From Conexibacter sp. CPCC 205762 (GTDB taxonomy: Bacteria > Actinomycetota > Thermoleophilia > Solirubrobacterales > Solirubrobacteraceae): a stretch of 64,000 nt of DNA. A program made the translations under genes and the position numbers. Of the stretch, positions 26,556 to 29,323 are shown piece after piece. The stretch is from contig NZ_JAUTDN010000001.1 of assembly GCF_030646155.1 (NCBI RefSeq), positions 1 to 64,000 of the forward strand, given 5' to 3'. The notes below the pieces were generated by a model. It had not been told where the DNA came from, ran no database searches, and saw only the letters and a list, made by a program, of their open reading frames with translations. The stretch's first letter is position 1. Each line of letters starts with the position of its first letter.

Positions 26556-26585
26556 TTGACTCGTTTCCGGTCTCTGGCGTAGCAT
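26556..26585 (+). promoter_or_regulatory. Sigma-70-like promoter of the ATP-grasp operon
   Basis: TTGACT (26556-26561), an 18-base spacer and TAGCAT (26580-26585) stand in an AT-richer stretch after the TetR gene. It would give a leader of about 45 bases before the GTG at 26636, which has a GAAGAAGGGGA ribosome site. Confidence 0.6.
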
Positions 26586-26635
26586 CGCCGCCGCCGGGGG
26601 CCGCTGGCGGCCTCACCTGACGAAGAAGGGGACCC

Positions 26636-26953
26636 GTGGCGAGAGTCGCGCGTGACGCGCTCGTCCGCAGCTGGACGCGCGCGCAGGAGGACGACAGCGA
26701 GGGCTGCCTCGTCTATCGCCCGTCCGACGCCGACCTGCCGCCGGCGCGCGCGCCGCGCAGCGGCCTCGAGCTGGGCGCCGACGGCGCGCTGCGCGAGCTG
26801 ACGCCAGGCCCGGCCGACAAGCGGGAGGCGACCGGCGGCAGCTGGGAGCTGGACGGGGAGCAGCTGACGCTGCGGGTCGAGGGCGGCCCGTCACGCCGGT
26901 ACGGAGTGGAGCGGGCCGACGAGCACGAGCTGCGCCTGCGCGAACTGGGCTGA
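26636..26953 (+). CDS. Small lipocalin-like protein, first gene of the ATP-grasp operon
   Basis: 105 residues, GTG start. No signal peptide. The pattern LVRSWTRAQEDDSEGCLVYRP, then PPARAPRSGLELGADGALREL, PGPADKREATGGSWELDG and a closing strand HELRLRELG suggests a single small beta-barrel of the lipocalin-like type (RxGLELxxDGxL...GxW). It stands 20 bases before the metalloprotease gene and shares its promoter. It could be a carrier, inhibitor or chaperone for the operon's product. It is not an obvious peptide precursor. Confidence 0.65.
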   Translation: MARVARDALVRSWTRAQEDDSEGCLVYRPSDADLPPARAPRSGLELGADGALRELTPGPADKREATGGSWELDGEQLTLRVEGGPSRRYGVERADEHELRLRELG

Positions 26954-26973
26954 ATCGCGAAAGGGACGACCGC

Positions 26974-28326
26974 ATGGCTGACGACGACCTGCCGAGAACA
27001 CGCAGCTGCGGGACGATGCCGGTGCACGAGCGCCTGCTCCGCACCGACTCCTCCTACCTGCACGCGCGCGCACGCAGCGAGACCAACGCCTGGGAGGTGG
27101 AGGCGGCCGGCGGCGCCGTCGCGCGCAGAGGGATCACGGTGATCCCGACGGTCGTGCACGTCGTCTACAGAACGGCCGCGCAGAACATCTCCGACGCGCA
27201 GATCCAGAGCCAGATCGACGTCCTCAACAGAGACTTCCGCATGACCAACGCGGACGTCAGATCGCTCCCGGCGGTCTTCGCGCCGCTCGCGGCCGACGCG
27301 CGGATCGAGTTCGAGCTGGCCAGAAGAGACCCCAGCGGCAGAGCGACGAGCGGCATCACGCGCACGAGAACGTCGGCCGCGTCGTTCAGCGACGACGACA
27401 GAGTGAAGTCGTCGAGAACCGCCGGCGTCAACGCCTGGCCGAGCGACAGATATCTGAACCTGTGGGTCTGTCAGCTCGGCGGCGGCCTGCTCGGCTACGC
27501 CCAGTTCCCCGGCGGCGCGGCGGCGACCGACGGCGTCGTGATCCGGCAGAGCGCGTTCGGCACCACCGGCACCGCGGCGGCGCCGTTCAACCTCGGCCGC
27601 ACCGCGACCCACGAGATCGGCCACTGGCTCAACCTGCGCCACGTCTGGGGCGACGACGGCACCGGCTGCAGCGGCGACGACTTCGTCGCCGACACGCCCA
27701 ACTGCGCCGGCTCCAACGGCGGCATCCCGGCGTTCCCGCATGTCACCTGCAGAAACGGCCCCAATGGTGACTTGTTCATGAATTACATGGACTACACCGA
27801 CGACGCCGGCATGTTCATGTTCACCGCCGGCCAGGTCGCGCGGATGCAGGCGTCGCTGGACGCCGACCGCCCGACGATCGGCTACCAGAAGGCCGGGCCG
27901 AAGTTCAAGATCGCCGACGACCCGATAACGCTGAAGTTCCGCGACGACATACCGAAGCTGCAGATACTCGACCAGGGGATACCGAAGCTCCCCGCCGCCG
28001 ACATACCCAGAATACCGATAAGAAGACCGATACCCGAGATACTGATAAACCCGGTGGGCCCGGTCGCAGGCCGCGCCGCGACGCCGTTCGTGCTCTCGAC
28101 GCCGCACCACTCGCAGGCGTGGAGCCGCTCGTTCCCGGGCGCCTTCCAGCAGCAGCTCGCCCAGCTCGCGGAGCAGATCGGCCAGTACGAGCAGGTGCTG
28201 GGGCAGTACCAGCAGGCGCATGCCGCCGGGCAGCTCGCGCCGGCCGACGTCGAGGCGTTCGGCCAGCTGTCGGCCGCGTACGGCCAGCTGGTCGAGGAGT
28301 ACCAGCGGCTGGCGGCGGGCGGTTGA
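26974..28326 (+). CDS. M43-type (pappalysin-like) zinc metalloprotease with long C-terminal tail
   Basis: 450 residues. The extended zinc motif HEIGHWLNLRHVWGD (from residue 213) and the Met-turn NYMDY (about 270) identify the M43 metzincin family. Cys pairs (C232/C244, C259) are as in exported relatives, yet no signal peptide is seen: it begins MADDDLPRTRSCGTMPVHERL. After the catalytic domain a linker of Ile-Pro repeats (318-358) contains ten ATA codons. It is followed by a segment with PFVLSTPHHSQAW (371-383) and a Gln-rich helical end (389-447). The ATP-grasp gene starts 5 bases after its stop. The tail may be the substrate of that ligase, or the protease may mature a modified peptide. 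Confidence 0.85.
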   Translation: MADDDLPRTRSCGTMPVHERLLRTDSSYLHARARSETNAWEVEAAGGAVARRGITVIPTVVHVVYRTAAQNISDAQIQSQIDVLNRDFRMTNADVRSLPAVFAPLAADARIEFELARRDPSGRATSGITRTRTSAASFSDDDRVKSSRTAGVNAWPSDRYLNLWVCQLGGGLLGYAQFPGGAAATDGVVIRQSAFGTTGTAAAPFNLGRTATHEIGHWLNLRHVWGDDGTGCSGDDFVADTPNCAGSNGGIPAFPHVTCRNGPNGDLFMNYMDYTDDAGMFMFTAGQVARMQASLDADRPTIGYQKAGPKFKIADDPITLKFRDDIPKLQILDQGIPKLPAADIPRIPIRRPIPEILINPVGPVAGRAATPFVLSTPHHSQAWSRSFPGAFQQQLAQLAEQIGQYEQVLGQYQQAHAAGQLAPADVEAFGQLSAAYGQLVEEYQRLAAGG

Positions 28327-28330
28327 CGCC

Positions 28331-29323
28331 GTGACCGTCCTGATCCTCGCGCCGGAGACCGACGAGCACGCGCTCGCGGTCGCCGGCCGCCTGCGCGACC
28401 TCGGCGGCGAGGTCACGATCGTCGACCTCGCCGACTTCCCCCAGCGGGCGAGCCTGTCGGCCAGCTACGCCTGCTGCGCCGACTGCGGCGGGCGCGGCTT
28501 CGCGCTCGAGCTGGAGCGCGGCCGGCTCGACCTCGGCGAGGTCGGGGCGGTCTGGTGGCGCCGGCCGCAGTGGCCGGAGCCGAGCCCGCAGATCGCCGAC
28601 GACGGCCATCGCCTGTTCGCGGCCAACGAGGCGCAGGAGGCGCTGAGCGGGATGTGGCACTCGCTCGACGCCTTCTGGATCAACGACCCGGCGCGCGACC
28701 AGGTCGCGCACCGCAAGGCGTTCCAGCTGTCGGTCGCGCAGGACGTCGGCCTGCGGATCCCGCACACGCTGATCACCAACGACCCGGTGCGGGCGCGCGC
28801 CTTCGTCGACCAGCGCGGCTACCGCGCGGTGATCTACAAGTCGTTCTCCGCGACCGAGCGCGACTGGCGCGAGACGCGCCTGCTGCGGCCCGAGGAGCTG
28901 GAGCTGCTCGACAACGTCAAGTACGCGCCGGTGATCTTCCAGGAGTACGTCGAGGCGGTCTACGACCTGCGCGTCACCGTCGTCGGCGAGGAGCTGTACG
29001 CGGTCGCGATCCACTCCCAGGAGACCGACTACAAGGTCGACTTCCGCATGGACGTCGCGCGGGCGCGGATGGAGGCGGTCGAGCTGCCGGCCGAGGTCCA
29101 GCGCGGCCTCAGCGCGCTGATGGCCCGCCTCGGCCTCGTCTACGGCGCGATCGACATGCGCCTCACGCCGGACGGCAGACACGTCTTCCTGGAGGTCAAC
29201 CCAGCGGGGCAGTGGCTGTTCGTCGAGGAGCCCTCCGGCCAGCCGATCGCCGACGCGATGGCGCGGCTGCTGCACGCGCGCGACCGAGCGAGGAGAGACG
29301 TGCGCGCGGTCGCGGTGCGGTAG
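28331..29323 (+). CDS. MvdC/MvdD-type ATP-grasp ligase (graspetide synthetase-like)
   Basis: 330 residues, GTG start 5 bases after the protease stop. The pre-ATP-grasp domain (residues 1-100) contains the family mark WWRRP (75-79). The ATP-grasp core has KSFSATERDW, the hinge strand VIFQEYVEAVYDLRVTVVG and the metal-binding end FLEVNPAGQWLFVEEPSGQPI. In microviridin-type systems such enzymes make ester or amide links between side chains of a precursor peptide. No short precursor gene is evident next to it, so the substrate may be the tail of the upstream protein or a distant peptide. A role in another peptide ligation is possible. Confidence 0.85.
   Translation: MTVLILAPETDEHALAVAGRLRDLGGEVTIVDLADFPQRASLSASYACCADCGGRGFALELERGRLDLGEVGAVWWRRPQWPEPSPQIADDGHRLFAANEAQEALSGMWHSLDAFWINDPARDQVAHRKAFQLSVAQDVGLRIPHTLITNDPVRARAFVDQRGYRAVIYKSFSATERDWRETRLLRPEELELLDNVKYAPVIFQEYVEAVYDLRVTVVGEELYAVAIHSQETDYKVDFRMDVARARMEAVELPAEVQRGLSALMARLGLVYGAIDMRLTPDGRHVFLEVNPAGQWLFVEEPSGQPIADAMARLLHARDRARRDVRAVAVR

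Follow-up and report, generated by a model that had tools for sequence, protein, structure and literature searches.

Ordinary graspetides have an N-terminal leader that holds the ligase during the joining of side chains in the core, with Lys used for lactams and Thr for lactones. Precursors of the microviridin/plesiocin type are short and carry their leader at the N-terminus, and the recognition motif in graspetide leaders is described as a proline plus two hydrophobic residues (PMC8939145). In corallotide, a group 15 graspetide, a TIGR04187-matching ligase joins the Lys and Asp of KIVAD repeats in a large precursor, CorA, which apparently has no enzyme domain, needs its N-terminal part and is also hydroxylated (PMC13097080). 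The fuscimiditide synthetase ThfB is reported to work even with the leader moved to the C-terminus (PMC13003496) and to cyclise fluorescent proteins (PMC12291112). For ligase branches 7 and 8, Makarova et al. 2022 report that no precursor was predictable; these branches occur with peptidases of several unrelated families, and the peptidases were guessed to supply peptides from other proteins (PMC8939145). For group 32, Carter et al. 2026 suggest that the varied proteases encoded nearby may serve in maturation or resistance (PMC13097080). Matched by description, these branches and this group are probably the loci studied here. The relevant passages of the two papers do not describe peptidases bearing the substrate as a tail, and a search of the main text of open-access papers returned no report of a tail as substrate.

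We analyzed a window of 64,000 nucleotides from Conexibacter sp. CPCC 205762 (contig NZ_JAUTDN010000001.1, positions 1 to 64,000). As the first-pass annotation of this DNA had noted, three genes lie together on its forward strand (26636-29323), encoding a small lipocalin-like protein, a tailed M43 metalloprotease and an MvdC/D-type ATP-grasp ligase, with intergenic gaps of 20 and 4 bases:

26556..26585, forward strand: sigma-70-like promoter match, TTGACT-18-TAGCAT, 5' of the operon (consensus match only)
26636..26953, forward strand: small lipocalin-like beta-barrel protein, 105 aa (structure and fold comparison)
26974..28326, forward strand: M43 (pappalysin-type) metalloprotease with C-terminal tail, 450 aa (Pfam PF05572)
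27610..27642, forward strand: zinc site HEIGHWLNLRH, residues 213-223 of the protease (sequence; alignment)
27889..28083, forward strand: repetitive tail, residues 306-370, predicted modified region (sequence)
27901..28002, forward strand: four [K/T]x4D units, K310-D315, T319-D324, K328-D333 and K338-D343, predicted ring closures (shuffle test)
28084..28323, forward strand: C-terminal region with the PFVLSTPHHSQAW motif and a helical hairpin, residues 371-450, predicted ligase-binding "follower" (sequence, model)
28331..29323, forward strand: ATP-grasp ligase, MvdC/MvdD (graspetide synthetase) family, 330 aa (profile and structure matches)

It is very likely, judging from sequence comparisons, that this ligase is a graspetide synthetase and that it acts on the C-terminal tail of the protease whose gene immediately precedes its own. 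The earlier annotation had proposed the protease tail as a candidate substrate, and this proposal is supported by the joint presence of tail and ligase on the M43 scaffold, a leader-type motif, a Lys/Thr-Asp/Glu spacing code, and the recurrence of such tails on unrelated enzymes. As in the microviridin/plesiocin type, we find the same ligase family, a proline-hydrophobic-hydrophobic motif, and Thr, Ser or Lys placed before Asp or Glu. However, the carrier is a 450-aa enzyme rather than a short precursor, and the motif is C-terminal instead of lying in an N-terminal leader. Like corallotide, with its five Lys-Asp repeats (KIVAD in ...VKIVADDPLR), the window has a large substrate with related repeat units (KIADDP in the window, KFRDDP in the sister genome described below), but in this case the repeats lie at the end of a protease, ahead of the recognition motif. 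ThfB also accepts a C-terminal leader and modifies whole fluorescent proteins, although its substrates are laboratory constructs, whereas the window holds what is apparently a natural version.

Pfam matches of the ligase are to the MvdD pre-ATP-grasp domain and to RimK (3.2e-05). Against TIGR04187 (GRASP_SAV_5884) it scores 268 bits, below the curated cut-off of 350, and against the MvdD and MvdC models 196 and 192 bits, respectively. Among solved structures, its relatives are ATP-grasp ligases (5ig9, 5ig8, 7m4s, 9bou, 7mgv and 7drm), several of them known as graspetide ligases, and the conserved ATP-grasp residues K129, R214, D275, E288 and N290 are invariant in 10 aligned ligases.

The protease matches M43 over residues 153-296 (2.3e-13; 50.8 bits vs a cut-off of 23), and both the HExxHxxxxxH site (H213, E214, H217 and H223) and the Met-turn (Y271-M272-D273) are invariant in the protease alignment, consistent with M43 membership. 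Cys12, invariant in 19 aligned rows, is a possible cysteine switch. No signal peptide was seen in the 450 residues. From residue ~305 onward, Pfam returns chance-level weak matches only. The tail reads KFKIADDPITLKFRDDIPKLQILDQGIPKLPAADIP and contains four [K/T]x4D units vs 0.67 expected (p 0.00085; 20,000 shuffles), or p 0.0024 when either Asp or Glu is counted as the acid; it is short, and its periodicity is weak (p 0.02). These units are predicted to be the sites of ring closure, the exact pairs being putative. Within residues 388-447, helices are predicted with a pLDDT of about 80; the structure model is poor elsewhere and was used for these helices alone.

The operon is sporadic, since a ligase relative was found in only 9 of 145 other genomes of the same family, at identities of 40% or less. 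Class- and phylum-level searches recovered the same three-gene order in one genome from another family of the class (G152), with ligase and protease 66% and 67% identical to those of the window. There, the tail is a tandem repeat of an 11-residue unit, KFRDDPVGTAV, and variants thereof, with a weak enrichment in +5 units (7 vs 3.2, p 0.02). After the repeats, both tails share PFVL(S/A)TPHHS(Q/M)AW followed by a helical end. A profile of this C-terminal region, run against 396 genomes of the phylum, matched at full length only in the window and G152, with three weak partial matches. One local peculiarity concerns codons: all 10 Ile codons for residues 318-358 (27925-28047) are ATA, while the 13 others of the gene are ATC, as are the Ile codons throughout the sister protease gene, and ATA accounts for 21 of 637 Ile codons across 54 crudely predicted genes of the window.

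We then compared M43 proteases with and without a neighbouring ligase. The tail was present in all 21 M43 proteases adjacent to a ligase (the 21st on a Burkholderia stagnalis megaplasmid) and in none of the 24 without a ligase in the examined stretch, although these 45 cases are related and thus not independent, and at 7 of the 24 loci less than 0.45 kb was available beyond the gene (one gene runs off), so that a ligase could be missed there. At least 1.3 kb was available at 14 of these loci and ~0.7 kb at 3. The ligase-less set comprised 2 proteins from the window's own phylum, 16 from 246 genomes of another phylum and 6 from plasmids (7 of 9 plasmid matches were examined); three loci were dropped as repeats (L164-L166, of L044, L049 and L104) and L167 as a likely repeat of L045, whose tail it shares. 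Proteases without the ligase stop at the catalytic domain or bear unrelated extensions. Specifically, in two genomes of the phylum sample (G710 and G481) the protease stops just past the catalytic domain and the small gene is kept, with no ligase, and at L174 the motif pattern falls inside an unrelated 381-aa extension in which none of 31 Lys/Thr follow the +5 code described below.

To look beyond M43, we used a five-row ligase alignment to scan a single genome of each species, which gave at least 486 stretches with a relative, and kept the best 80 (41-59% identity), many of them from metagenome bins. According to record and tree labels, these 80 loci fall in Planctomycetota, Chloroflexota, Actinomycetota, Verrucomicrobiota, Pseudomonadota, Acidobacteriota, Bacteroidota and Krumholzibacteriota. 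In the ligase tree, they form one branch with the window and G152 (82 ligases, SH-aLRT 96), which also includes a degenerate ligase whose EVNP motif is lost (L140), and M43-linked ligases fall in few clusters (3 changes vs 18.9 in shuffles). The first-pass annotation had named ligase homologues that always lack a protease partner as evidence against its reading; on the contrary, 77 of these best 80 loci have a separate same-strand ORF directly upstream of the ligase, and these ORFs are mostly enzymes from unrelated families. Across 79 proteins (the 77 upstream ORFs, the window and G152), Pfam assigned astacin to 24, Trypsin_2 to 21 and Trypsin to 10 (overlapping sets), M43 to 20, subtilase to 3 and tyrosinase to 2, the remainder matching none of these. 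No Pfam or NCBIfam model covers the tail as a named domain in these 79 proteins (E 0.001), bar one low-complexity Cornifin match. The three exceptions among the 80 are L076, which has no upstream ORF and in whose genome a narrow tail profile found nothing convincing, L096, which lies at a contig end, and L120, a fused ORF. This last ORF (L120:3816-5867, one metagenome bin) encodes a trypsin-like domain, a T..D tail with a PFVQ motif, and the ligase; it is possibly a natural fusion, or possibly a deletion artefact because the ligase lacks its first residues. Four upstream ORFs beside ligases of this same clade (L069, L074, L090 and L110) begin with a small domain that is not a protease and continue into a PF-motif tail.

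A strict PF-hydrophobic motif, of the proline-hydrophobic-hydrophobic type that graspetide ligases recognise, occurs in the last 140 residues of 77 of 79 proteins (the 77 upstream ORFs, the window and L036), compared to 3.4 expected from shuffles; it is absent from L083 and L110. Since the first choice of ORFs had favoured PF, the choice was repeated blind to it. Selection by codon-position bias gave an identical ORF for each of the 78 loci with an upstream ORF, and the motif was present in 75 (the failures being L083, L110 and, at L120, a spurious frame); selection by sheer length gave the same ORF in 74 cases, with the motif in 71. At L102 and L077 the repeats go on beyond the PF motif, so the recognition element may have cores on both sides. 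In a phylum sample of 26 further ligase loci (L126-L151), a tailed enzyme was never the best upstream ORF, and 9 of the ligases adjoin a short ORF of 63-99 aa that ends in TTTSTAGS.THFDD and has PF[AT]L close to its beginning or middle.

Next, we evaluated residue spacing after thinning the 78 tails to one per 70% ligase identity, which left 54. The pattern [K/T]x4[D/E] occurred 425 times vs 141 in shuffles, and 46% of tail Lys/Thr have an acid at +5. Over all 20 residues, an acid at +5 was most enriched after Lys (z 25) and Thr (z 13), followed by Leu (z 5), while Ser was neutral (z 0.7) and Arg depleted (z -4); these z-values are not probabilities because repeats inside one tail are not independent. 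The tails thus place a repeated nucleophile, Lys or Thr but not Ser, N-terminal to an acid. Enrichment was also seen at +3 and +4 (z 10 and 7) and at +13 (z 17), the last as expected of repetitive tails; the best distance was 5 in 30 of the 54 tails, 3 or 4 in 16 and another in 8, and one tail (L064) has no +5 unit. Catalytic parts showed no excess of the +5 code (92 vs 106 in shuffles), and the weaker excess in the stretch after the motif (51 vs 30) arises because some tails extend past the motif. Periodicity exceeded shuffles at p 0.05 in 61 of 78 tails, leaving 17 non-periodic, vs 2 of 73 catalytic parts. Finally, 75 of 79 tails could be labelled K, T or mixed, and across the ligase tree this label switches at least 10 times.

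Three other explanations were weighed against these patterns. The protease might instead mature a separate precursor encoded elsewhere, which would be the ligase's target, with the tail a flexible linker with a coiled coil. This lies near the published guesses of proteases as maturation or resistance genes (PMC13097080) or as peptide producers (PMC8939145), but two tyrosinases bear the tail too, tail and ligase are absent together, and both the leader-type motif and the preference for Lys/Thr over Arg/Ser at a fixed acid distance would be left unexplained, making this account improbable. A slightly less probable alternative accepts the tail as substrate and has the ligase link tails between enzyme molecules, or to a polymer, into cross-linked assemblies: this would call for the very same residues and motif, and repeat number does vary widely, yet the short, fixed nucleophile-acid spacing within one chain, as in corallotide KIVAD (PMC13097080), argues for rings inside the chain. 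Addition of free amino acids to tail carboxylates, a RimK-like glutamylation suggested by the RimK domain match, is scarcely credible given the much stronger matches to ribosomal-peptide maturase models and solved ATP-grasp ligases (5ig9, 5ig8), and it offers no reason for Lys/Thr at a fixed distance.

With the tail as substrate of the neighbouring ligase, the C-terminal PFVL motif and the helical hairpin would hold the ligase in a leader-like manner but at the opposite end of the protein. The ligase would then activate Asp (or Glu) side chains in the repeats, to be joined to Lys as a lactam or Thr as a lactone ~5 residues upstream, so that the window tail would hold as many as four small rings. 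When 68 of the 79 proteins were scanned crudely for hydropathy, one, from an ORF with an over-extended start, came up to the level of the lowest-scoring of three secreted controls. Modification would therefore take place in the cytoplasm, with rings closing on the whole enzyme. The result may be a stiff stalk, resistant to digestion, by which the enzyme is anchored, sorted or protected, but a role as stalk or sorting device is put forward only tentatively. Self-inhibition of proteases is unlikely as a general role since two tyrosinases bear the tail. No secretion or transport gene was recognised among recurring neighbours (one example per recurring cluster); separately, a gene family ~3 kb upstream of the ligase, with a longest ORF of 552 codons, recurs in eight M43 loci (L103, L104, L107, L115, L116, L117, L121 and L123).

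The proposed step is chemically ordinary, because corallotide already pairs Lys with Asp in KIVAD (PMC13097080) and ThfB works with a C-terminal leader (PMC13003496) or on fluorescent proteins (PMC12291112); by this comparison, what is new here would be the carrier and the direction, not the chemistry. We consider it likely that, across at least eight phyla and on unrelated enzymes, a C-terminal graspetide ladder, closed by lactams or lactones through a follower-recruited ligase, is the missing substrate of the protease-linked ligases. This would offer an answer to the question of the missing precursor of these branches, as raised in PMC8939145, and would take graspetide chemistry out of small peptides and into integral parts of large enzymes. 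If true, it would represent a natural, leader-at-end means of putting covalent rings into protein tails, and genome mining for short precursors would tend to miss the class.

The first-pass annotation had also considered the small first gene as the ligase substrate. Its product is a small beta barrel resembling solved lipocalin-like proteins (VIA-align 2), with Potempin E from Tannerella forsythia (8ehc/8ehd) and lipocalin-like barrels as closest known. Among 83 loci searched, relatives occur at 16 of 19 other tailed M43 loci and at both tail-less M43 loci, and none was found beside tailed enzymes other than M43. We rejected the small protein as substrate because its relatives adjoin tail-less M43 genes without a ligase. 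Its distribution points to a partner of the M43 protease, with or without the tail, and its role would be that of an inhibitor or chaperone.

A separate ligase clade (L020, L021, L022, L025 and L043), in which several members have truncated ATP-grasp partners, adjoins small K/E-rich proteins or K/E-rich tails, the latter on a tyrosinase (L043) and a subtilisin-like protein (L025), among others. These tails and neighbours do not clearly follow the +5 rule, and the clade was set apart from the main sample; three cases have an RPDL..AL..EPD motif, and the clade is perhaps a second, independent enzyme-tail system.
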